Shown: positions 1-12,699 of the stretch, in pieces
Layout: every line of letters begins with the position of its first letter
Position numbering within the stretch: position 1 is the stretch's first letter
Origin: Lysobacter gummosus
GTDB taxonomy: Bacteria; Pseudomonadota; Gammaproteobacteria; Xanthomonadales; Xanthomonadaceae
Length of the DNA: 64,000 nt
Reading direction: 5' to 3'
Assembly (NCBI RefSeq): GCF_001442805.1
Contig: NZ_CP011131.1
Location: forward strand, 620,001-684,000
Translations under genes and position numbers: made by a program
The notes under the pieces: generated by a model
Database searches by the model: none
What the model was told of the DNA's origin: nothing
What the model saw: only the letters and a program-made list of their open reading frames with translations

Positions 1-1
1 C

Positions 2-397
2 TATCGCGTGCTGATGGGCGACCTGGGCCATCGCCTGCGCGCGCTGGCGGTCACCGACAGCCGCTCCAGCCGCGTCGCCAAGGCGGTCGCAGTGCTGCGC
101 CAGCGCTATCTGCAGCCGCTGTGCATCGAAGACCTGGCCGACGAAGTGCACATGAGCACCTCCTCGCTGCACCACCAGTTCAAGGCGGTGACGACGATGT
201 CGCCGCTGCAGTTCCAGAAGCACCTGCGCCTGCACGAAGCGCGCCGGCTGATGATGGTCGGCGGCATCGAAGCCGTCGCCGCGGCCCATCGCGTGGGCTA
301 CGAAAGCCCGTCGCAGTTCTCGCGCGAGTACAAGCGCCTGTTCGGCGCGCCGCCGCGGTCGGAAGTGGTGTTGGCTCGGGGTGCGCCGCAGGGGTGA
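2..397 (+). CDS. AraC-family transcriptional regulator, C-terminal part (5' end outside window)
   Basis: The frame is open from the first base of the window, so the gene begins upstream; about 131 codons are visible. They contain the double helix-turn-helix DNA-binding region of AraC/XylS regulators: a first HTH around LADEVHMSTSSLHHQFKAV and a second around AAHRVGYESPSQFSREYKR, preceded by a linker of the kind seen in the AraC_N (PF06719) subgroup. The ligand-binding N-terminal domain is not visible, so the effector is unknown. The last 50 bases, including the stop, recur imperfectly at 1561-1610, beyond a small immunity-gene island. Family call is firm; specificity is not. Confidence 0.88.
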   Translation, partial: YRVLMGDLGHRLRALAVTDSRSSRVAKAVAVLRQRYLQPLCIEDLADEVHMSTSSLHHQFKAVTTMSPLQFQKHLRLHEARRLMMVGGIEAVAAAHRVGYESPSQFSREYKRLFGAPPRSEVVLARGAPQG

Positions 398-524
398 GGT
401 GGGGCGGGCTGCCGGGCTTCGGCGCTGGAGCCCTCGGTTTCGAAATGCCTGCCGGCGATGGTCAGACTGGAAAATCTGCAGTCATGGAAGGGGATGCCTA
501 TTTCAGGCTTTTGAGGATCAACTG

Positions 525-799
525 ATGCCTGTTGTCGACATTGAAGACGCAACGACCTTGGCCAAAGAGCATGTTGAAGTTTTATCGCGAAGGGCCGGGG
601 CGAATTTTGTGCTCTTAGAGGACGAGGTGGAGGACGTGGATCAGGGCTGAGTCTTCTACTACAACTCGGAAGAGTTTGTCAGGACCAGAGAGGACATGGC
701 ATCCCTGGTCGGAAATGGTCCTATTTTGGTAACACGAGAAGGGGCGTGGTGGAGTTGTCGAGTGCCTATCCGCTGGATCAGGCCTTGCGTCTTATCTGA
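525..799 (+). pseudogene. Imm35-type immunity protein, broken
   Basis: The ATG at 525 has GAGGA about 8 bases upstream. The product begins MPVVDIEDATTLAKEHVEVL and continues through FVLLEDEVEDVDQG to a TGA at 648-650. The frame then reads VFYYNSEEF, so the stop sits exactly where Imm35/YrhB proteins have Trp in the GWVFFYNS motif (TGG to TGA). After GPILVTREG a one-base shift near 737 restores VVELSSAYPLDQALRLI before a stop at 797-799, giving about 91 residues, the normal size. I infer a decayed immunity gene of a polymorphic-toxin system with a nonsense and a frameshift lesion. Read errors at both sites would be the alternative. Confidence 0.6.
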
Positions 800-1030
800 T
801 TCGGGAGTTCGCGTAGTGCCTATCAGGTTGCGCTCTTTACCAGTGCCGCGCGCCGCAGCGTGAGGCGGCTTGCGTTGCTTCGTCGCGATCTGCCGTGGCT
901 GACGGCGAGCTTGTGCGATGCAATGACATTGATGGAAGGGAAATCCCGATCACTCGATCCTGAGTGGCCCGTTCTTGCGGCGCTCGGGCAACTCGGTGGT
1001 GGTGCCGCCACGGCGGCGTCCGGAGAGTGA
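800..1030 (+). pseudogene. Coding-like remnant, unknown
   Basis: An open frame without a start codon in its first half, in the same frame as the restored end of the Imm35 remnant, runs to TGA at 1028-1030, three bases before the next gene. It contains AYQVALFTSAARRSVRRL and later LDPEWPVLAALGQLGG. The string VALFTSA also occurs near the N-terminus of the next protein (1034-1504), so this may be a fragment of a related gene. It could equally be chance open sequence in GC-rich DNA. I recognise no family. Confidence 0.25.
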
Positions 1031-1033
1031 TAA

Positions 1034-1504
1034 ATGACGGAACTGATTTATCCGGAAGGACTCGACAGCATGTGGCTCGCATCGGACCAAGACGGCCGGG
1101 TTGCGCTTTTTACCAGTGCTGGATGCGGGCCGATTCCCATGTCGTTCCTGGCCGCTCTCAAAAAGAAGAGCGTCGTCGATATCGAGCCCTTGATCTGGGC
1201 CATGCCGGTCGTTTCCCGCGTTGACAGCCTTGAGCCCGCTTACTCTCAGCTTGATTCCGTATCGCTGGGCGAGAGGGGGTTCTTCGTATACGACTGGATC
1301 GATTTCTCCAATGCAGCCTCGTTCGAGGATGTGGGATATCAGCTTGTCGTAGTGCCGGATCCGCCTTTGGACATCGAGTCTCTCGCAGATCCGCTATTTG
1401 CCATCGCGCATGCGACGAGTGCTGGTCGCAGCTTCGAGTCGTTGTCTCGTTGGGATTTCAGAGAGAGCGTCGAGTGTCTTTCTGGCGAGGGTTTCCGAGC
1501 GTAA
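1034..1504 (+). CDS. Hypothetical protein, possibly an immunity protein
   Basis: 156 residues from ATG at 1034, with GGAGAG about 9 bases upstream. There is no signal peptide, membrane segment or cysteine-rich motif. It is acidic, with a segment reading MWLASDQDGRVALFTSAGCG near the N-terminus. I do not recognise a named family. Small acidic proteins of this kind, next to an Imm35 remnant and lacking a partner gene, are common in immunity-gene arrays of polymorphic-toxin loci; that role is inference from context only. Base composition is lower in GC than the flanking genes (for example GATTTCTCCAATGCAGCC), consistent with transfer. Confidence 0.6.
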   Translation: MTELIYPEGLDSMWLASDQDGRVALFTSAGCGPIPMSFLAALKKKSVVDIEPLIWAMPVVSRVDSLEPAYSQLDSVSLGERGFFVYDWIDFSNAASFEDVGYQLVVVPDPPLDIESLADPLFAIAHATSAGRSFESLSRWDFRESVECLSGEGFRA

Positions 1505-1560
1505 GGGGCGGAAGTCGATGTCTTGTTGAGCGAGAAGGAATCCAGCAGACGCAAGCGATG

Positions 1561-1610
1561 CGCCGCCGCGGTCGGAAGTGGTGTCGGCTCTGGGGGCGCC
1601 ACAGGGGTGA
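1561..1610 (+). repeat. Direct repeat of the AraC 3' end (partner 348-397)
   Basis: Bases 1561-1610 match 348-397 at 46 of 50 positions, including the TGA stop of the AraC gene. The two copies bracket the immunity island. This is what insertion or duplication at the 3' end of a gene leaves behind. There is no integrase or transposase between the copies. Confidence 0.8.
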
Positions 1611-2022
1611 GCGCTTCGCGTATTCGTGTCGCCGGCGTCTTTTGCGTTTTATCCCAGTTGTGCCGGCCGCCTCGGCAAGGCTGAAAAATTCCGCCATGCG
1701 GATGCGCGCGCGCGACCAAGCCGAATGATCAACGCAGACTCGGCGCGACACCCCATGTGCTTCGTCATTGCGAATCATTCCTTGATGCCGCATCGCTCAT
1801 AGCGAATCGTTCTTTGGAATTACGACGCGTCTGATAGCAGGACGCCGTCCGGAACGCGTTGAATTGCGGCGGGGCGCACGAAACCGCGGGGTTTCGGCGA
1901 CGTTCCCGAGGTAACCGTTCGCCGATCCCTGAAGCCTTCTCGCGGCCTTGGCAGCGCTGTGGGCGCGTGCCCGGCGCCGGATATGCGCGCTTGCAGCCAT
2001 CAGCACTAAGGAACTCACAAAA
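1611..2022. other. Intergenic, no gene seen
   Basis: About 410 bases between the repeat scar and the first subtilase. I see no convincing gene. A short direct repeat, GCGAATCATTCCTTGA near 1769 and GCGAATCGTTCTTTGG near 1800, may be a regulatory site. AAGGAA at 2008-2013 is the likely ribosome binding site of the downstream gene. Confidence 0.4.
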
Positions 2023-5000
2023 ATGAAGAAGATCCCCTGCAAAAAAATCGCAATGCTCGGGCTGGCCAGCGCCTGCGCCGCTACATTGTTGTGGACACAG
2101 ACGCCTCTGGGCGCGCGGACGCAAGCTCCTTCCGCGAGTGATGGCGATGCATCGTCCACTGGCGTGGGCGGCGCGCCCGATGCCGATCCGCATGCGCCGG
2201 TGCGTCTGGCGGCGGCGGTCGCGCCGGTGCCGCGCAATGCCGCGCAAGCCAAGTTGGGCAGCGGCCAGTTGCTGCAGGCGGTGCAATGGTTCGCTCATAA
2301 CGCCATGTCCGCGGCAGGGGGAAGCGGCGGGCCGGCGCTCGGCGCGGCTTACAGCGCCACCTCCGTCGCGGCGCAGATCGCGGCTCTCGACCGGGCCGGC
2401 CTGCCGGCGGCGTATCGCGACGGCGAGAAGGTCAAGATCAATATCCGCCTGGCGCTGCCGTACGCGCAGATCGCCGATGCCGGTCTGCTGGACCGGGCGA
2501 CTTCGGGCCTGCGCGAAACCATGCTCGCGGCCGGGCTGGAAGCACGCGCCATCGCCGGCTCGCCGACGCTGGAAGCGCTGGTGCCGCTGGCGCGCCTGGA
2601 ATCGGTCGCGGCGCTGGCCGGTGTCGCGCAGATCCGTCTGATGACGCTGCCCGATCTCAAGGTGACCAGCGATGGGCTCGATGCCAGCGGGGTAAGCAAT
2701 TTGCGCGCCCTGGCCAACTACGGCAATTTGGCCGTGGAATTTCGCGATACGAATAAAACCGTCGCGATCATCGACAAGTTCGGCTCGGTCGATCTGCAGG
2801 CTCTGCAACTTGCCAAAAAATGGCCCAAGAACACGCAGGAAGTAACCGATAAGCTCGTGCAGATCAACAGCGCCATTGCGTTCGGAAGCGGCGACGCGCT
2901 CCAGCATGGCGATGGCGTGGTCCAGTACGTCTACGGCGTGGCGCCGAAGGCGAAGTTTCGCCTGTACGACATAGTGCAGGCCAGCGATTGGGGCAAAGCC
3001 GTCCGGGACGCGGCCAATCTCGACGCGCTCAACCAGGTGCTCGGCGCGCCGCGTGCGCGGCTGATCGGCTTGCCGCTGGAAGCGCTCGGGGAATCGGGCG
3101 CCGGCGTTATCGAGGGGCTTTCCGATGCGATCGCCGCGGCCACCGCCAACGGCGCGCAGATCATCAAATCCTCCGACAGCGAAAGCCTGGAGGCGTTCGA
3201 CGGCACGGACAAGACCGTCGCGATCATCGACCGGTTCAGCTCGGCGCATCCCCCAGCGCTGCAACTTGCCGGCAAGTGGCCCACGAACACCGAAGCGGTG
3301 CCCGACAAGCTCGTGCAGATCGCCGGCACCGCTGTGTTCGGAAGCGGCGAGGCCAAGCATGGCAATGAATTGGTCGAGGACGTCTACGGTCTGGCGCCGA
3401 ACGCGAAGTTTCGCGTTTACGACATAAGGCAGGCGAGCGACTGGGTCGGCGCGGTCCGCAACGCGGCCAATCTCGACACGCTTAACCGGGCGCTCGGCGA
3501 GCCGCGCGCGCAGCTGATCGGTTTGCCGCTGGAGGCGTTTGGAGGGAGCGGCGGCGTCACTATCGCGGGGCTTTCCGCTGCCATTGCCGCGGCCACCGCC
3601 AACGGCGTGCAGATAGTCAAATCCTCGGGCAAAGAACTGCGCGGCGAGAATATGGCCATCGCCATCATCGACACGTTCGACTCGTCCAACATCGCCGCCC
3701 TGCAGAACGCGGGCGAGTGGCCGAACAACAGCGCGACGGTGACCGACAAGCTCGTGCTGACCGCGAGCGCGGACGGCGTAACGTTCGGGGCGAGCAGAAG
3801 CAAACACGGCAACGCGGTGACCGAGATCGTCTACGACATCGCGCCGGACGCGAAATACCGCTTGTACGACACGAGCAGCGGGATCGGCGGCTGGGTCCGT
3901 GCGGTCCAGGACGCGGCCAATCTCAATGCGTTCAATCAGGTGCAGGGCGAGCCGCGAGTGCAGGTGATCAGCGTCTCGATGGGCGTGAACGGGGCGTCTT
4001 CCGGGGATGGCACAGGCGAAGGCAGCGACCTCAGGGGGCTTTACGAGGCCATCAGCGCGGCCAATGCAAACGGCGTGCTAGTGATCAACGCCGCGGGCAA
4101 CGAGGCCCGGTCGTACTGGGACGGCGAGAGCTCGGCCGGCGCGGGCAACGCGGTCGCGCAGGATTTCGTGCGCGGCAATCGCGACGGCACCGGCCGGGAG
4201 ATCATCGACGACATCAATATCCTGCGCCGCAATGCCAGTTGGGGCGATTGCGTTCCTGTCGGCATCGCCGATCGCGGTGTCGCGGACCGTTACGCGTTCA
4301 ATCTACGGATGACGTGGAACAACTGGAGCACAGGCGCAGGCAACACCACGGCCGACTACCGGCTCGAGTTGGTGCGCTGGGCCGACCAGACCACCACACC
4401 CGCAGGCGCGGTGATGCCGGCCGGATGGGTCGTGGCGGCGCAGTCCGACAACGCGCAGACCGGCGCGTTCGGCCAGACTCCGTCGGAAGGGATCGATTAC
4501 GCGGCGCCCGTGGCAGCAAGGACTGCTCGTTGCGACAATGTGCTGTCGGGCGCGGGGAGCATCGAAGGCAGCCGGTACGCGGGCGGCGGGATGTTCGGCG
4601 TGCGGATCGTCCGCAAGTCGCCCAATACGGCCAACTTCCTGCGCCTTTTCACCGATGACTACCAGCCGAGGTATTCGGTGTCCGATCGCTCGTTGATCGC
4701 GCCGGCGGATTCCGCCGACGTCATCAGCGTGGCGGCGCTGGCCGCGGCGACGTCCGGGCTCGAGGCCTATAGCTCGCGCGGCCCGATACTCGCCCCCGGC
4801 GGCGCGCCCACGACCACCCAGGCGGTGGGCAACGCCAAGCCCGACCTGGCTAATTTCGCCAACGTCGATACGGTGTCCTATGGCAATAACGCATTCAACG
4901 GCACCTCCTCGGCGACACCGCACGTCGCCGCTCTGGCCTTGCTTGGGCTTCAGCACCAGATGCAGCTGGCCAACGCGACAAAGCCGGCGCCGACGTCCGA

Positions 5001-5289
5001 CGTGGTCACGTTGCAGCGACGTCGCAACGATCTGGCCGAAGCGACCTATGGATCGTTGCTGACGATCGCAGGCACGGGCGGAAACGATCTGGGGCCGGCC
5101 GGATTCGACAGTGGCTATGGCAGCGGCCGCTTGAAATTCCATGCGGCGTCGAAGTCGTGCTTCCTGTCGGTGCTGTACAGCGAGAGCAACCGCGCGCTGT
5201 TGCCGGCGCAAGCCAATCCGCTGCCGCCTGACCAGAAGAGCTACAGCCAGCTGCTGGCCCAAAGCAGCGAGGCGTGCGCGGCGCGTTGA
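2023..5289 (+). CDS. Secreted S8 subtilisin-like peptidase with triplicated Asp/His half-domain
   Basis: 1088 residues. ATG at 2023 follows AAGGAA and begins a signal peptide (MKKIPCKKIAMLGLASACA). A propeptide-like region follows to about residue 230. The complete catalytic domain uses Asp550, His595, oxyanion Asn693 (NAAGNEA) and Ser962 (GTSSATPH). Before it stand two further copies of the first half of the domain, with Asp251/His295 and Asp403/His446, spaced about 150 residues apart. Each stops where the Asn loop should be, reading IIKSSDSES or IVKSSGKEL instead. The downstream paralogue (5964-8360) has only one copy, so the extra halves are most simply an internal duplication. Likely an extracellular protease; activity of the extra halves is unknown. 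Confidence 0.9.
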   Translation: MKKIPCKKIAMLGLASACAATLLWTQTPLGARTQAPSASDGDASSTGVGGAPDADPHAPVRLAAAVAPVPRNAAQAKLGSGQLLQAVQWFAHNAMSAAGGSGGPALGAAYSATSVAAQIAALDRAGLPAAYRDGEKVKINIRLALPYAQIADAGLLDRATSGLRETMLAAGLEARAIAGSPTLEALVPLARLESVAALAGVAQIRLMTLPDLKVTSDGLDASGVSNLRALANYGNLAVEFRDTNKTVAIIDKFGSVDLQALQLAKKWPKNTQEVTDKLVQINSAIAFGSGDALQHGDGVVQYVYGVAPKAKFRLYDIVQASDWGKAVRDAANLDALNQVLGAPRARLIGLPLEALGESGAGVIEGLSDAIAAATANGAQIIKSSDSESLEAFDGTDKTVAIIDRFSSAHPPALQLAGKWPTNTEAVPDKLVQIAGTAVFGSGEAKHGNELVEDVYGLAPNAKFRVYDIRQASDWVGAVRNAANLDTLNRALGEPRAQLIGLPLEAFGGSGGVTIAGLSAAIAAATANGVQIVKSSGKELRGENMAIAIIDTFDSSNIAALQNAGEWPNNSATVTDKLVLTASADGVTFGASRSKHGNAVTEIVYDIAPDAKYRLYDTSSGIGGWVRAVQDAANLNAFNQVQGEPRVQVISVSMGVNGASSGDGTGEGSDLRGLYEAISAANANGVLVINAAGNEARSYWDGESSAGAGNAVAQDFVRGNRDGTGREIIDDINILRRNASWGDCVPVGIADRGVADRYAFNLRMTWNNWSTGAGNTTADYRLELVRWADQTTTPAGAVMPAGWVVAAQSDNAQTGAFGQTPSEGIDYAAPVAARTARCDNVLSGAGSIEGSRYAGGGMFGVRIVRKSPNTANFLRLFTDDYQPRYSVSDRSLIAPADSADVISVAALAAATSGLEAYSSRGPILAPGGAPTTTQAVGNAKPDLANFANVDTVSYGNNAFNGTSSATPHVAALALLGLQHQMQLANATKPAPTSDVVTLQRRRNDLAEATYGSLLTIAGTGGNDLGPAGFDSGYGSGRLKFHAASKSCFLSVLYSESNRALLPAQANPLPPDQKSYSQLLAQSSEACAAR

Positions 5290-5329
5290 CGACATAGTCC
5301 GCCGGCCCCGGCCGCATCCGGCCGTTTCG

Positions 5330-5362
5330 AAGGCACCGGACTTTGGTCCGGTGCCTTTCTTT
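5330..5362 (+). terminator. Rho-independent terminator after the first subtilase
   Basis: A perfect 12-bp stem (AAGGCACCGGAC and GTCCGGTGCCTT) with a TTTG loop, followed by TCTTTG, 40 bases after the stop codon. It separates the two subtilase genes into different transcripts. Confidence 0.85.
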
Positions 5363-5963
5363 GTCGCGATGGCGCTTTAAGCGAGGCGGTATCCAACAGC
5401 CGTAAGTGATGCGTCGTGCTTGCCTCTGCCTGGCGATATTGCGTTACTTCGGTTCAGTGCATTCATCATCATCGACTTGGCGACGGGTCGCGCACCGCCG
5501 CGAGCGATCGACTTATCGACCCGCACATCGACTCGATATTCATCGGGTACGTCAGCGCGCATTTCCGCGCCTCTGGTTCCAGGAAAAACGTTTCGACCGG
5601 ATTCGAACCCGCACTTGCGCCACGCGCGCGTCGATAACGGATCTCCATCGCGAATCGAATCCATCTCGCCTGCGAAAACAGGGTAGGGAGCCTGGCGCGC
5701 ACCTGCGTTGATGCGCGCTGCGCGTAAGAAATCTTTATGAAATTTCGTGCTGTACGAATGCATATTGAGTGATGGGGGGGTGTAGTTCTTTTTGCGTTTG
5801 AGGATTGAGCGTGCCGAGAACGCCTCTCTCCCCACCCTTATCGGCGCGCCGCCATCGCTGTTCCATTTCTCCGCATCAAGGTCCGTATGCCTTGGCCGTG
5901 GCGGGCGCCTGCGCCCGGCGGCAGCGGGTGACCATGTCTGAAATCAGCATCAGGAATGAACGA
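5363..5963. other. Intergenic, no gene seen
   Basis: About 600 bases between the two subtilase genes. There is no convincing coding sequence. AGGA at 5952-5955 lies 8 bases before the ATG at 5964 and decides that start; an in-frame ATG at 5934 lacks such a site. The segment 5710-5790 is relatively A+T-rich and is the likely promoter region of the second protease. Confidence 0.4.
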
Positions 5964-8360
5964 ATGAAGAAGATGTCTTCGAAGAAATTCGCCGTGCTCG
6001 GCCTCGCCGCCGCTTGCGCCACGGTGTTGGTGTGGTCGCGGCAGCAGACGCAGGCGCCGGATGCCGCGTCGGTCGGCGCGCTCGCCGGCGCCAACGCCGC
6101 CAGCGTCGCCGCCGGTTCGGTGTACGCCTCGATGCAGCCGGTGGCGATGAACGCGCCGACGCCGCGCAACGCCGCGCAAAGCAAGCTCGGCGCCGGCCAA
6201 TTGTTGCAAGCGGTGCAGGCCTTGTCGCAATCGCAGAGCCAGAGCGGCGGCGCGTCCGCACCGTCGGCGTCTTCGCAGCGCGGCCCGGCGTATCGCGGCG
6301 CTTCGGTGGCCGAGCAGATCGCCGCGCTCGACCGCGCCGGCATTCCCTCGCGCTTTCGCGATGGCGAGAAGGTCAAGGTCAACGTCGATCTGTCGCTGAC
6401 CTACGATCAAGTGCAGAACCCCAGCCTGCTCGACCGCGCGACCGCGTCGCTGCGCGAGACCTTGCTTGCCGCCGGCATGCAGGCGCATCAGATCAACGGC
6501 TCGCCGAGCATCGAAGCGTCGGTGCCGCTGGCGCGCCTGGAATGGGTCGCCGGCCTGCAGTCGGTCGCGCAGGTGTCGTTGATGACGATGTCGCAGACCA
6601 CCGCCTTCAGCGACGGCGCCACCGCCAGCAACATCGATCAGCTGCGCTCGCTCGGCAATTACGATCAGCTCGCCGCCGGCTTGCGCAGGGAGCTCAACGG
6701 CGAAGGCCTGACCATCGCCATCGTGGATCACTTCAACAATCTCAACGGCGCGGTCCAGGCGCTGCAGGACGCCGCGGAGTGGCCGCAGAACAGCGACGTC
6801 GAAGCCGACAAGCTGACCCTGACCGCGTCCACCAGCGGCGCCTTCGGTTATCGCGGCGCGGCGCACGGCAACGCGGTCACCGAAATCGCCTACGACATCG
6901 CGCCATCGGCCAAATTCCGCCTGTACGACAACACCGGCGCCGCCGACTGGGTCAGCGCGATCCAGGACGCGGCCAATCTCAACGCGCAGAACGTGGCGCA
7001 GGGCGAGCCGCGCGCGCAGGTCATCACCGCGTCGCTGGGCTTCAACCTCGCCGCGCCCGGCGACGGCACCGGCACCGGCAGCGATCTCAAGGGCCTGTAC
7101 GACGCCATCGACGCGGCCAAGAACAACGGCGTGATCGTGCTCAACGCCGCCGGCAACGAGGCGCAGGTGCATTGGGACGACGATAGCACCGCCGGCGCGG
7201 GCGTCAACGTGCTGCAGGATTTCCTGGTCGGCAATGTCGGCGCCAACGGCGCGGCGATCGTGGAAAGCATCAATCCGCTGACCATCGGCGGCCGCTACGA
7301 CGGCTGCATCCCGGTCGGCGCCAGAACCCAGAAGGACCGCGACACCTTCGAGTTCAACCTGTGGCTGGGCTGGAACGACTGGACCAGCGCGAACAACACC
7401 ACCAACGCCGACTACCGGCTGGAGCTGGTGCGCTGGGCCGACGCGGTCACCCGCAACGGCCGCGTGGTCACGCCGGCCGGCTGGGTCGCGGTGGCGCAAT
7501 CGGATTTCGCCCAGACCGGCGCCGCCGGTCAACAGCCGCTGGAATTCATTTCCTACCAGGCGCCGGCTGCGACCAGGACCACCGCCTGCAATGCGCAGGG
7601 CTTCGACCCCGCGCGCTTCGCCGGCGGCGGCAAGTTCGGCGTGCGCATCACCCGCAAGACCGCGGGCGTGAACAACTTCCTGCGCCTGATGAACTCGGGC
7701 TACAACTTCCAGTACGCGCAGACCGCGCGTTCGCTGATCCATCCGGCCGATGCGGCCAGCGTGATCACGGTGGCGGCGCTGGATGCGGCGACCTCCAATC
7801 TGGAAGCCTACAGCTCGCGCGGCCCGGTCCTCGGCGCCGGCGGCGCGCGTCCGGCCGGTCAGGCCGCGGGCAACGCCAAGCCCGACCTGGCCAACTTCGC
7901 CAACGTCGATACGGTGTCTTACGGCGATAACGCCTTCAACGGCACGTCCTCGGCGACGCCGCATGCGGCCGCGCTCGCGCTGCTGGGTCTGCAGCATCAG
8001 CGTCAGCTGACCGACGCCACCGTGCCGGCGCCGTTGCCGGCCGATGCCACCGCGCAGCAGAAGGCCGAACGCGCGGCCTTGCTCACGCAGCGCAACGTCA
8101 ACCTGGCCGATGCCACCTACGACGCGCTGGTCTATGTCTCCAGCACCGGCGGCAACGACCTGGGCGATGCCGGCTTCGACGCCAGTTACGGCAACGGACG
8201 CCTGAAGTTCCACGCCAACGCCGAGTCGTGCTTCCTGTCGGCGACCTACGATGCGAAGTATCGCTCGCTGCTGCCCGCGCAGGCCTCGCCGCTGCCGGCC
8301 GGACAGAAGAGCTACGAGCAACTGCGCATCGACAACAGCGCTACCTGCGCCGCGAACTGA
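5964..8360 (+). CDS. Secreted S8 subtilisin-like peptidase
   Basis: 798 residues, a tandem paralogue of the preceding protease. The ATG at 5964 begins a signal peptide (MKKMSSKKFAVLGLAAACA). The propeptide-like region shares RNAAQSKLGAGQLLQAVQ and the VPLARLEWVAGL segment with its neighbour. One complete catalytic domain follows: Asp255 (IAIVDHF), His301 (AHGNAVTE), Asn398 (NAAGNEA) and Ser662 (GTSSATPH), with a long insert between Asn and Ser carrying the LELVRWAD segment found in both proteins. The conserved C-terminus includes LLPAQASPLPAGQKSY. Expected to be exported and self-processed; the substrate is unknown. Confidence 0.92.
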   Translation: MKKMSSKKFAVLGLAAACATVLVWSRQQTQAPDAASVGALAGANAASVAAGSVYASMQPVAMNAPTPRNAAQSKLGAGQLLQAVQALSQSQSQSGGASAPSASSQRGPAYRGASVAEQIAALDRAGIPSRFRDGEKVKVNVDLSLTYDQVQNPSLLDRATASLRETLLAAGMQAHQINGSPSIEASVPLARLEWVAGLQSVAQVSLMTMSQTTAFSDGATASNIDQLRSLGNYDQLAAGLRRELNGEGLTIAIVDHFNNLNGAVQALQDAAEWPQNSDVEADKLTLTASTSGAFGYRGAAHGNAVTEIAYDIAPSAKFRLYDNTGAADWVSAIQDAANLNAQNVAQGEPRAQVITASLGFNLAAPGDGTGTGSDLKGLYDAIDAAKNNGVIVLNAAGNEAQVHWDDDSTAGAGVNVLQDFLVGNVGANGAAIVESINPLTIGGRYDGCIPVGARTQKDRDTFEFNLWLGWNDWTSANNTTNADYRLELVRWADAVTRNGRVVTPAGWVAVAQSDFAQTGAAGQQPLEFISYQAPAATRTTACNAQGFDPARFAGGGKFGVRITRKTAGVNNFLRLMNSGYNFQYAQTARSLIHPADAASVITVAALDAATSNLEAYSSRGPVLGAGGARPAGQAAGNAKPDLANFANVDTVSYGDNAFNGTSSATPHAAALALLGLQHQRQLTDATVPAPLPADATAQQKAERAALLTQRNVNLADATYDALVYVSSTGGNDLGDAGFDASYGNGRLKFHANAESCFLSATYDAKYRSLLPAQASPLPAGQKSYEQLRIDNSATCAAN

Positions 8361-8407
8361 CGCGGCCCGGCCTTCGCCGCGGACTCGCGGCGAAGGCTTC
8401 CCCCATG

Positions 8408-8440
8408 CACCGGGCCTTGCGCCCGGTGTTTTCATTTTCT
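8408..8440 (+). terminator. Terminator after the second subtilase
   Basis: Stem CACCGGGC / GCCCGGTG with a 5-base loop, followed by TTTTCATTTT. A second hairpin (CCTTCGCCGC / GCGGCGAAGG, 8371-8396) lies directly upstream. Together they end the protease transcript. Confidence 0.8.
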
Positions 8441-8856
8441 CGGTCGCGGTTGATCGCCGATGGCGCCGCGCAATGCCGCGCTGCAGCGCAAACAAGTCTT
8501 GCGCGCGCTCACCCAAGCTCACGAACGCACTACCCGGGCTAACCGTTTTCGCCGCCGGTCCGGCTTGCGTGTTGCGTGCCGCCCGAACCAAGAACGCAAT
8601 CCTCGCGGGCCGCAGGACAGCGTTTTCGCGCGCAAGGCAAAGAAAGTCCGGATATTTTCCTTCTGCCATGCGCGTCGCATTTTCGCCTCGCGCCGGTCGG
8701 TAGCGTCCGACCCCGACGCGAAGCAGCCAGCGATTCGATCGCCAGCCACCGTACTTCGGCCTGCGTTCCTTTGTGCGTCCGCGCTCGCGCGGACGGCTGC
8801 CTGCATCGCGACCCGGCGACTCTCTCGCTTCGGTCCATCAGAACACAGGACAGGCC
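8441..8856. other. Intergenic, no gene seen
   Basis: About 415 bases with no convincing gene between the protease terminator and the dehydrogenase operon. The operon promoter should lie here. AGGA at 8847-8850 serves the ATG at 8857. Confidence 0.4.
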
Positions 8857-10227
8857 ATGAATCATCGATACCGCTCCGGCCCGCCGTTGCGCACACCGCT
8901 GGCCGCGACAGCGCTGGTGTTAGCGCTCGCCGCGTGCACCGACAGCCATCTTCGGCCCGAGCCGCACGACACCCTGTCGCGCGCCGACATCGGCAACCAT
9001 GCGCAAAGCGCCGACGCGTTGCCGTTGCCGCCGTTGAGTTCGACGATTCCGCTCGAAATCAGCGTGCCGCAGCAAAAACCGAATCTGCAGGATCTGCAGG
9101 ACGATTTCGATCTGTTCTCATGGCAGTCCTTCGTCGCGGTGAACTGGCCGGCCGGACCCGACGGCAATCCCAAGCTGGGCGCGAGCATCGGTCCGGACGT
9201 GCCGACGGTGTGGGAGAACTGGAAGGAAAGCCGCGACATCTTCCTGCCCGGCGGCGCCACGCCGCCGCCGTGGGGCCAGGACCCGCCGCCGCCGGACGTG
9301 TGCAAGGGCCAGGGCGCCGCCACCTTGAACCTGACCCAGATCGGTAAGACCCCGAACGTACTCGACGAAAGCGGCGAGCCGTTCGAGACCGGTCCGCTGA
9401 TCGACCAGAACGGCCAGTACGTGCGCTTCGCGATCATGGCCAATCAGGACATGTTCAACACCATCGTCAGCGATGGCCTGTACAGCAAGGCCGGCCAGGC
9501 CAGGTTCGCCCAGCCGGCCAATTTCGCCCAGCCCAAGGGCTCGAAGAATGTCGGCGCGATCATGATCAAGTCGTCGTGGAAGGTGATGGGCGCCAACGAC
9601 GATGTCAGCCGCTTCCATACCATCCAGGCGCTGGTCTACACCAATCCGGGCGAACACGAGGGCATCGCCGCCGCGTGCAAGCGCCAGACCGTGGGCCTGG
9701 TCGGCTTGCATATCGCGCACAAGACCGCCGACGAGCCGCAGTGGGTGTGGTCGACGTTCGAGCACGTGGACAACGTGCCCAGCCAGGGCGAGCCGATCGA
9801 CAAGCCGCATTACAACTTCTACGACAAGAACTGCACGAAGAACTGCGACGCCAACGAGCCGCCGCCGCGGCCGTGGAATCCTAACGCGGCCTATACCCAG
9901 CCGACCCAGGTGGTGCGCGAGATCCCGCTGACCGCATCGACCAAGGCGCTCAATGCGCGTTATCAGGCGGCGCTGCGGAAGAACTATCCCGGCACGGTGT
10001 GGGCCAACTACGAGCTGATCAGCACGCAGTGGCCGACCAACGCCAGCAATCCAACCGATCCCACCGGCAATCCGGCGCCGAGCTTCCTCGCCAACGCGAC
10101 CTTGGAAACCTACATCCAGGGCAAGGTGCCGCAGACCTCGTCCAGCTGCACGGCCTGCCACAACAACGCGACCATGACCAACGGCCTGAGCTCGGATTTC
10201 ACCTATCTGCTGCAGCGCGCGCAATAA
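8857..10227 (+). CDS. Lipoprotein with c-type haem motif, electron-transfer partner of a GMC dehydrogenase
   Basis: 456 residues. ATG at 8857 starts a lipoprotein signal sequence with lipobox LALAAC. The body is not recognisable as a standard three-haem cytochrome subunit; a single CxxCH (CTACH) lies about 25 residues from the C-terminus in SSSCTACHNNATM. It heads a three-gene operon with a small subunit and a GMC flavoprotein. In known FAD-dependent sugar and alcohol dehydrogenases, the cytochrome subunit takes electrons from the flavoprotein to the respiratory chain, which is the likely role here. Residues between 70 and 420 belong to no domain I can name. Confidence 0.75.
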   Translation: MNHRYRSGPPLRTPLAATALVLALAACTDSHLRPEPHDTLSRADIGNHAQSADALPLPPLSSTIPLEISVPQQKPNLQDLQDDFDLFSWQSFVAVNWPAGPDGNPKLGASIGPDVPTVWENWKESRDIFLPGGATPPPWGQDPPPPDVCKGQGAATLNLTQIGKTPNVLDESGEPFETGPLIDQNGQYVRFAIMANQDMFNTIVSDGLYSKAGQARFAQPANFAQPKGSKNVGAIMIKSSWKVMGANDDVSRFHTIQALVYTNPGEHEGIAAACKRQTVGLVGLHIAHKTADEPQWVWSTFEHVDNVPSQGEPIDKPHYNFYDKNCTKNCDANEPPPRPWNPNAAYTQPTQVVREIPLTASTKALNARYQAALRKNYPGTVWANYELISTQWPTNASNPTDPTGNPAPSFLANATLETYIQGKVPQTSSSCTACHNNATMTNGLSSDFTYLLQRAQ

Positions 10228-10237
10228 GGAGAACGGC

Positions 10238-10732
10238 ATGATCGATTACATGGAGTACTTCATCCGCCTCAGCGTCGGGCTGACCGGGTTCACCCGCGAT
10301 GCGATCGCGCCGCGGATCGATCAGATCGACATCAAGACCGTGTACCTGCAGGTGTTCCGCGACAATCTGGCCAATGGCATGGCCGACCAGATCATCGCGA
10401 AGTATTACGGCCTGAACGAGGCCGAGGGCGGCCAGGACAAGAACCAGGAAGCCATCGCCGGCGCCTTGCTCGACGGCACCGATCCCGACGAAGTGCTGGC
10501 TCTGCGCCAGTTGATCTACCTGTGGTACATGGGCGCGTGGCCGACGGTGCTGTACGACCAGTCGCCGACCCGCGGCCAGACCTTCAGCGCCGTCGTCTCG
10601 GCCACCAGCTACACGCAAGGGCTGGTATGGCGAGTGATGCAGTCGCATCCGATGGGCAGCTCCAACTACACCTACGGCTATTGGGCGAGCCCGCCGCCGC
10701 CGCTGCAGGCTTATCTGGAGAACCCGGCATGA
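10238..10732 (+). CDS. Small subunit of a GMC-type dehydrogenase (sorbitol/sugar dehydrogenase small-subunit family)
   Basis: 164 residues, with AAGGAGA immediately before the ATG. The sequence (LTGFTRDAIAPRIDQ, then ALRQLIYLWYMGAW and SHPMGSSNYTYGYW) fits the FAD-SLDH/gluconate 2-dehydrogenase small-subunit group, which stabilises the flavoprotein and often carries its export signal. No twin-arginine or Sec signal is visible here, which is unusual. Its stop overlaps the start of the FAD subunit (ATGA), indicating coupled translation and a 1:1 complex. Confidence 0.75.
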   Translation: MIDYMEYFIRLSVGLTGFTRDAIAPRIDQIDIKTVYLQVFRDNLANGMADQIIAKYYGLNEAEGGQDKNQEAIAGALLDGTDPDEVLALRQLIYLWYMGAWPTVLYDQSPTRGQTFSAVVSATSYTQGLVWRVMQSHPMGSSNYTYGYWASPPPPLQAYLENPA

Positions 10733-12699
10733 GCATCACCGTCCCCGCGAACGGTTTCGACGTGGTGATCGTGGGTTCGGGCATTTCCGGATCGATCATC
10801 GCCTATCAACTCGCGCTCAAGGGCAAGCAGGTGCTGATCCTGGAAGGCGGCCCGCCCGTGCCTAAGAGCCGCGAAGCCTACATGCAGACCTTCTTCACCG
10901 CCAACGCGAAGACGCCCGAGTCGCCGTATCCGCCGACCATGCAGGGCCCGGCGGGCAAGGGCAATCCGCTGGGGCAACCCGATCCGGCTTCGCTCAACAC
11001 CCCGCGCTACACCGTGCTGCAGATCAACGCCTGGCAGAAGCCGCTGCAATGCTATTTCGTCTACGGCGCGCAGACGGCCAGGCGCGCCGACGACCCGGAC
11101 ATGCAGTTCGCTTTCGGCAGTTCCTACGAGCGCGTCGCCGGCGGCACCACCTGGCATTGGCTGGGCACCTCGCTCAATCATCTGCCGAACGATTTCCAGC
11201 TCAGGACCAAGTACGGCCAGGGCGTGGACTGGCCCGGCGGCGCGCAGTTCTACCAGAACCTGCTGCCGTACTACCGCCTGGCCACCGAGGTGATCGGCGT
11301 GTCGTCGGACAAGCCGCCGATGGTCGATCTGTACAAGACCTTCGATGTCGAACCCGGCGGCGATTACGGACCCAACTACGACTATCCGATGCCGGGCATC
11401 GTGCCGTCGTTGAACGACGTGCTGTACCAGCAGAAGGTCACGTCCTTGAGCGTGGACGGCATCGGGCTGTTCGTCACGCCCACGCCGCAGGGGCGCAATT
11501 CGCGTCCGGGCAAGCGCCGCCAATGCGCGGGCAACACCAACTGCATTCCGATCTGCCCGATCCAGGCCAAGTACGACGGCACCGTGACCCTGGCCCAGGC
11601 GCTGCAGACCGGCAACGTGCAGATCCAGTATCAGACCGTCGCCAACAACATCCGCCTGCAGGGCGATCAGGTCAGCGGCATCGACTATCTGACTTACGAC
11701 AGCCAGACCGGGCCGTCCACCGGCAGCGGCACCGCGGTCGGCAAGCGCTACGTGCTGGCCGCGCACGCGATCGAGACGCCGAAGCTGCTGCTGATGTCCA
11801 ATCGCAATCCCGGCTTCGCCAACGGCGTGGCGAACAGTTCCGATCAGGTCGGCCGCAATCTGATGGACCACGTGATGTATCTGGCCTGGGGCATGTCCAA
11901 GGACCCGATCTACGCCTTTCGCGGGCCGCTATCGACCTCGGGCATCGAGTCGCTGCGCGACGGCGCCTTCCGCAGCCAGCGCGCCGCGTACCGCATCGAG
12001 ATCGGCAACGAAGGCTGGAATTGGGCCACCAACGATCCCAATACCACGCTGGCCGATTTCGTGTTCGGCCAGAACAACACGCAGTTGAACGGCGATTCGG
12101 TCAACCAGCAGGGCAAGACGCTGCGGTTCGACCCTTCGCTGCCGGCTTTCAGCAAGCTTTACGGCTCCAGGCTGGTGGCCACGCTCAACGGCGTGTACAC
12201 GCGGCAGTTGCGCCTGGGCTATCTGATCGAGCAGTTGCCCGATCCGGACAATCGCGTGCAGTTGTCCAGCGTCTACAAGGATCACCTGGGCCTGCCGCGT
12301 CCGCAGGTGACTTACCGCATCCGCGAAGACTATGTGCGCAAGGCATTCGCATCGGCGAAGGAGGCTTCGACGCGGATATTCGCCGCGCTCGGCGCGACGG
12401 AGTACACCCAGGTGCCGGCGGCGCCGGTGTTGAGCGGGGTGGACGCCTCGCCGACCACCTTCCAGTACCAGGGCAACACGTACAAATTCTACGGCGCGGG
12501 CCACATCATCGGCACCTATCGCATGGGAACCGACTCGAAGCATTCGGTGGTCAACGCGCGTCAGCAGTCCTGGGACCATTCCAATCTGTACCTGGTCGGC
12601 AGCGGCGTTTTCCCGTCCACCGCCACCGCCAACCCGACCTTGACCATCGCCGCGCTGGCCTTGCAGGCGGCGGACCATATCCTCAGCGACCTCGGCTGA
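10729..12699 (+). CDS. GMC-family FAD-dependent dehydrogenase, catalytic subunit
   Basis: 656 residues. The start overlaps the preceding stop. The N-terminal dinucleotide fold (VVIVGSGISGSIIAYQLA) binds FAD. A Cys cluster, CAGNTNCIPICPI, near residue 265 matches the iron-sulfur-type segment of membrane-associated FAD glucose and sorbitol dehydrogenases. The C-terminal GMC domain contains GAGHIIGTYRMG and NPTLTIAALALQ. It should oxidise a sugar, polyol or alcohol and pass electrons to the haem lipoprotein two genes upstream. The substrate cannot be told from the sequence. No export signal is visible on this subunit or on the small subunit, so how the complex meets an exported cytochrome is unclear. 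Confidence 0.88.
   Translation: MSITVPANGFDVVIVGSGISGSIIAYQLALKGKQVLILEGGPPVPKSREAYMQTFFTANAKTPESPYPPTMQGPAGKGNPLGQPDPASLNTPRYTVLQINAWQKPLQCYFVYGAQTARRADDPDMQFAFGSSYERVAGGTTWHWLGTSLNHLPNDFQLRTKYGQGVDWPGGAQFYQNLLPYYRLATEVIGVSSDKPPMVDLYKTFDVEPGGDYGPNYDYPMPGIVPSLNDVLYQQKVTSLSVDGIGLFVTPTPQGRNSRPGKRRQCAGNTNCIPICPIQAKYDGTVTLAQALQTGNVQIQYQTVANNIRLQGDQVSGIDYLTYDSQTGPSTGSGTAVGKRYVLAAHAIETPKLLLMSNRNPGFANGVANSSDQVGRNLMDHVMYLAWGMSKDPIYAFRGPLSTSGIESLRDGAFRSQRAAYRIEIGNEGWNWATNDPNTTLADFVFGQNNTQLNGDSVNQQGKTLRFDPSLPAFSKLYGSRLVATLNGVYTRQLRLGYLIEQLPDPDNRVQLSSVYKDHLGLPRPQVTYRIREDYVRKAFASAKEASTRIFAALGATEYTQVPAAPVLSGVDASPTTFQYQGNTYKFYGAGHIIGTYRMGTDSKHSVVNARQQSWDHSNLYLVGSGVFPSTATANPTLTIAALALQAADHILSDLG

Follow-up and report, generated by a model that had tools for sequence, protein, structure and literature searches.

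The window analyzed here is a 64,000-nucleotide stretch of the Lysobacter gummosus genome (contig NZ_CP011131.1, forward-strand positions 620,001 to 684,000), a genome consisting of one 6.06-Mb contig. Two adjoining plus-strand genes in this window encode the subtilases P0001 and P0002, and P0001 contains three copies of the first half of the catalytic domain, two of which are extra. Residues of P0001 are numbered from a start at window position 2023 (MKKIPCKK...), and the two genes are laid out as follows:

2023..5289, plus strand: triple-half subtilase gene P0001, 1088 amino acids (open reading frame with a PF00082 match above cut-off)
2023..2100, plus strand: signal-peptide-like hydrophobic N-terminus (sequence and a predicted helix at residues 7-23)
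2365..2658, plus strand: prodomain-like alpha/beta region, residues about 115-212 (strands and helices predicted between 115 and 206)
2656..2742, plus strand: putative N-terminal segment of the catalytic domain, residues 212-240, cut off by both extra halves (model compared with subtilisin)
2743..3195, plus strand: extra half-domain copy 1, residues 241-391, with Asp251 and His295 and without the oxyanion Asn
3196..3642, plus strand: extra half-domain copy 2, residues 392-540, with Asp403 and His446 and without the oxyanion Asn
3643..4116, plus strand: catalytic first half (copy 3), residues 541-698, with Asp550, His595 and Asn693
4117..5166, plus strand: remainder of the catalytic domain, residues 699-1048, with the Ser962 codon at 4906-4908
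5964..8360, plus strand: paralogue P0002, 798 amino acids, with a single first half (residues 245-402)

P0001 belongs to peptidase family S8 by its PF00082 match (32.6 bits against a curated cut-off of 21.8; P0002 likewise exceeds the cut-off), its triad and oxyanion Asn and its subtilisin fold, and it is predicted to be proteolytically active. The triad and the oxyanion Asn (D550, H595, S962 and N693) are invariant in a 41-row alignment, with Ser962 located in the motif GTSSATPH that starts at residue 960. Among NCBIfam models, P0001 gave only a weak match of 25.9 bits to the type VII secretion system (T7SS) mycosin, for which the cut-off is 278.75, and a PDB sequence search returned two weak matches (E 0.08 and 0.31). 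The signal-peptide-like N-terminus suggests that the protein is probably exported. Residues 115-212 may be an I9-like prodomain; Inhibitor I9 gave no Pfam match at E 1 in P0001, and the order of strands and helices predicted over 115-206 is compatible with it. To judge from the ends of the range aligned to subtilisin, residues 212-240 would be the first residues of the subtilisin domain.

The initial annotation had placed three Asp/His halves in P0001 (D251/H295, D403/H446 and D550/H595) followed by N693 and S962, with the extra copies stopping at the Asn loop and one copy in the paralogue. All of these residue numbers are correct, and an alignment of the three segments with the paralogue copy confirmed three halves in P0001 and a single one in P0002. 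Asn693 and Ser962 occur only downstream of the third Asp/His pair. At the DNA level, Tandem Repeats Finder reports a 453-bp unit at 2758-3626 (1.9 copies, 80% matches, score 1160). Identity between copies 1 and 2 amounts to 79% for DNA and 67% for protein, and copy 3 shares 46% protein identity with each of them. The aligned ends fall at the oxyanion loop, which reads IIKSSDSE in copy 1 and IVKSSGKE in copy 2 versus VINAAGNE in the catalytic copy, so that the Asn693 column holds Ser and Lys, respectively.

A protein search with the extra region recovered P0003, also of 1088 amino acids and of the same layout, encoded on a separate contig of 24,156 bp. It is identical to P0001 at 1065 of 1088 residues (98%). 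Of the 23 differences, 15 fall within residues 1-60; copies 1 and 3 have one each, and copy 2 and the C-terminal part have three each. Because P0003 keeps all three halves, with five differences inside them, an assembly artefact is unlikely, and the assembly collapse that had been named as a refutation of the layout does not hold up. The contig of P0014, which is 99% identical to P0002, is also 24,156 bp long, so the tandem pair is probably present there too.

More than one half was found only in P0001, P0003 and P0050 among 61 proteins examined, the other 58 having one half each; in each of three protein searches, scoring was confined to the 7992-7996 candidates with the most words in common, and further cases were possibly missed. 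P0050 (986 amino acids) carries one extra half (residues 251-396) ahead of its catalytic half (404-560). P0001 was matched in 19 of 20 genomes of the genus, yet in one piece over residues 1-1088 only in the window's own genome; in the other genus genomes listed, the matches skip the extra halves. Similarly, the stretch spanning copies 1 and 2 was matched in 21 of 297 genomes of the family, a sample from a larger group, and end to end only in the window's own. Of the 86 loci checked, which are part of the genome matches, 85 contain a half and one (L054) contains none, and adjacent halves occur only in L001, L004, L034 and L059, all of them the P0001 gene itself. Several halves in L006, L064 and L067 are due to several genes per locus. 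Loci L088-L091 contributed to none of the results given here. Two candidates were rejected: genome G158 as a second case, with a query range of 7-303 but only 465 bases matched and one half at its locus (L045), and a 1267-amino-acid frame in G105 as a triple-half protein, which matched P0002 once, over 654 positions. A scan of genome contigs, from which the window's own and very near genomes may be left out, returned 45 stretches with the pattern and no relative, while a second scan, of named GTDB genomes, returned 11 loci titled Lysobacter or Luteimonas with one half each. Among the proteins and loci checked, the same architecture thus occurs in the near-copy P0003 and, with one extra half, in P0050. 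As side observations on the family, a relative's locus, L064 (G015:C1:1563500-1582000), has four genes of the family in a stretch of 18.5 kb, and one of these is split in two frames (541 and 395 amino acids); the window's genome has 25 PF00082 match rows, of which the one at G000:C1:987547-988464 holds two TGA stops.

Conservation of the extra halves was scored over 51 columns, each at least 95% conserved across 54 catalytic halves, with the rows P3_c1, P3_c2, P3_c3, P0051, P0052, P0053 and P0059 left out of the count. Copy 1 keeps 35 of these columns, copy 2 keeps 38 and the P0050 extra half 37; copies 1 and 2 alike keep 34, and all three extra halves 31. The columns lost in all three are Ile602, Asp605 (Gly in each case), Ser652, Asp662, Tyr674, Asn689, Ala691 and Asn693. 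Copies 1 and 2 have in common that Ser652-Gly654 is gone, the Gly-Asp-Gly loop is shortened and the oxyanion Asn is absent. Of the seven columns that we take, by equivalence to subtilisin, to be the active site (550, 595, 652, 654, 691, 692 and 693), both copies keep 2, versus 32 of the 44 others (p 0.034). These column counts indicate that the scaffold of the extra halves is largely kept and their oxyanion and S1 wall stripped. We rejected the extra halves as active or half-active sites, the oxyanion Asn and the nucleophile Ser being missing; taken alone they lack these two features of family S8, with Ser or Lys for the Asn and a repeat unit lacking the C-terminal half.

The initial annotation had put weight on the Asp and His retained by the extra copies. 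The Asp550 column is kept in all three extra halves and the His595 column in two. Two kept residues are unremarkable, however, because 34/51 conserved columns are kept in both copies anyway, and their retention is not a conserved feature because the His is replaced by Asp in the P0050 extra half; as a conserved functional signature it was therefore rejected. We regard the retained Asp and His as remnants of the parent half, and a triad-based role for the extra halves appears unlikely from these residues. The P0050 extra half, which ends VRFVSPLYKGEG at the Asn loop, resembles copies 1 and 2 in being degenerate and ahead of the catalytic half, in having Gly for Asp605 and in lacking Tyr674 and Asn693. 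P0050 differs from P0001 in having one extra half rather than two, in the change from His to Asp with the Asp itself kept, and in different loop gaps.

A tree of 64 halves unites copies 1 and 2 of both strains in a single clade (100/100) with a stem of 1.25, which groups with P0043 and P0048 (96/81). The P0050 extra half lies elsewhere in the tree on a branch of 2.74; approximately unbiased (AU) tests rejected neither a clade comprising every extra half (p 0.465) nor a pairing of the two P0050 halves (p 0.254). Gly605 in all three extra halves would fit either descent from one ancestral spare or a relaxation of constraint shared by them. P0043 and P0048 are single-half proteins with the loop LIKSAGNE, and one or the other is closest to P0001, or tied, in 10 of 11 segments, the exception being about residues 598-642 in copy 3; the ties are with P0050 at about 541-597 and with P0016 in the last segment. 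By these similarities P0043 and P0048 look like direct orthologues of P0001. The single-half P0048 also has an extra PF01483 match.

Folding of the extra halves, which had been raised together with their docking, is supported for copy 2: residues 391-538 modeled alone reached a predicted local distance difference test score (pLDDT) of 88.3 and a predicted template modeling score (pTM) of 0.85, while copy 1 is weak and the extra halves are modeled as looped out. The full model contains a normal subtilisin domain, in which the stretch from about residue 212 to 1048 corresponds to subtilisin 1-275, with 254 residues matched.

Our best reading is that P0001 is a probably secreted S8 subtilase, specific to one Lysobacter-like lineage, with two internal half-domain inserts. 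The likely order of events, as the tree suggests, would begin with one half duplicated in frame, the spare then losing its oxyanion and S1-wall residues, and the lesions common to copies 1 and 2 suggest that this degenerate spare was duplicated again. Each spare is predicted to fold as a five-stranded alpha/beta module in the loop between the N-terminal segment (about 240) and the first strand (545-550), such that residues 212-240 and 541-1048 would still make a normal subtilisin domain. Since the inserts follow the prodomain-like region, the mature enzyme would retain them if the prodomain is cleaved off in the ordinary way. We favor, with modest confidence, a role as non-catalytic modules, spacer or surface-binding, on an otherwise ordinary secreted protease, and we think that such modules would be mildly useful at best.

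Several observations weigh against this reading. The full model has a pTM of 0.59 and copy 1 contains 10-residue blocks down to pLDDT 32, so the placement of the inserts is not established; moreover, 38 of the 40 other rows in the guiding alignment are empty over nearly all of 241-538, which leads the model to favor looping out. Copy 3 falls just outside the group of copies 1 and 2 with P0043 and P0048 (94/74), so that a mixed origin by recombination or conversion between paralogues is possible, with such recombination possibly contributing to copy 3, and the AU test also leaves room for a single clade uniting copies 1, 2 and 3 (p 0.407). The open frame of the extra halves is no evidence for function either, because it is forced by the downstream catalytic domain.

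The extra halves might instead be passengers, two functionless in-frame duplications tolerated since folding is undisturbed. Their occurrence, among the 61 proteins, only in P0001, its near-copy P0003 and, singly, P0050 speaks for this, as do the very long stems (1.25 and 2.74), the loss of oxyanion residues in each extra half and a ratio of nonsynonymous to synonymous substitution rates (dN/dS) between copies 1 and 2 of 0.55 (NG86) or 0.35 (YN00); copy 3 against the P0002 half gave 0.56 (NG86). On the other hand, copies 1 and 2 retain most of the conserved columns (35 and 38 of 51), and both strains hold both copies. Amino-acid changes are also below those of a neutral simulation, a simple model without codon bias or GC pressure, which gave 57.5 ± 3.6 changes versus 47 observed (a fraction of 0.0023 of 3000 runs was as low), although this may merely reflect misfolding avoidance. 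A stop codon arose in 92% of the runs, a share that is uninformative on the function of the extras because the downstream domain needs an open frame. The extra halves are under weak constraint, and we regard the passenger explanation as unlikely while giving it some weight.

Decoy, inhibitor, substrate-binding module and domain-swap partner, the roles offered in the initial annotation, are all hypothetical. Regulation by a decoy or domain swap seems improbable to us: here an extra half would rival copy 3 for the C-terminal half, with its last strands and the helix of the Ser, and produce a conformer that is inactive or slow to activate. In its favor, the extra halves are homologous to the part on which the C-terminal half packs, and a stable fold is predicted for copy 2. 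Against it, the alignment of the full model is that of a normal subtilisin, and the oxyanion and neighboring loops are degenerate. We similarly find little reason to expect a built-in switch in which the C-terminal half or the substrate cleft serves stable pseudo-halves as a docking or swapping partner; if it were true, the single C-terminal half could pair with any of the three first halves, productively or not. Least credible is an enlarged pro-region, removed at maturation and aiding secretion or folding. The extras do come after the prodomain-like region and before copy 3, yet the segment that precedes them seems to belong to the catalytic domain, its G218 and L227 are invariant in the 41-row alignment, and columns 1-240 are at least 94% occupied in 39 of the 40 other rows.

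Single-half Lysobacter-type S8 peptidases (P0002, P0043, P0048 and others) share the N-terminal region, catalytic halves and C-terminal part of P0001 and have one first half versus three. The initial annotation knew of no protease with this layout, and we found none described with multiple first halves in the open-licence papers searched. The nearest parallels in the available texts are CspBA-type fusions and long internal S8 repeats. CspBA of Clostridioides difficile is described as a subtilase made as a fusion with a related but catalytically dead subtilase (PMC6636752), a separate pseudoprotease freed by interdomain processing, whereas the extras of P0001 are first halves only, N-terminal to the active half. 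They are thus not full-length subtilase domains of the CspA/CspC pseudoprotease type. Among S8 proteins, 41 members with long repeats are reported, 38 of them with the repeats in the S8 domain as in P0001, with identities in the ranges 10-20% and 20-40% (PMC6795024); the available text of that paper describes no extra half with its own Asp and His. Our observations suggest that the first five subtilisin strands can be copied as a unit, predicted to fold alone, in tandem before an intact enzyme, and P0050 provides a second, differently degenerate extra half in a relative. If so, partial-domain duplication would be a route to pseudoprotease modules, and P0001 is a compact test case of whether such a half can fold or bind without the rest of the enzyme.

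The triple-half gene lies in a segment that differs from relatives in blastn comparison with Lysobacter sp. ISL-50, the nearest relative compared:

453..5456, strand not assigned: segment of about 5 kb with the triple-half gene, edges approximate

Lysobacter sp. ISL-50 (L065) has 165 bp in place of this segment, with collinear flanks on both sides (window 1-452 at 94.5% and 5457-11599 at 94.7%). In seven of nine loci (L064, L065, L069, L070, L076, L079 and L086, with L065 and L076 on the same contig) the left flank, here window 1 to about 398, lies a short way upstream of the P0002 orthologue and the extra gene is absent, while L077 and L078 have no match to the left flank. P0002 orthologues occupy the corresponding place in relatives. 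The segment also encodes a 156-amino-acid open reading frame (1034-1504) without a Pfam match, and near its left end lies a 52-nt direct repeat (347-398 and 1560-1611, 92% identical, 1213 bp apart). Window positions 8857-12699 contain, besides a small gene and a GMC oxidoreductase, a CxxCH (CTACH) gene without a Pfam match; many relatives have the gene at 8857-10224, or genes that accompany it here, next to the P0002 orthologue.
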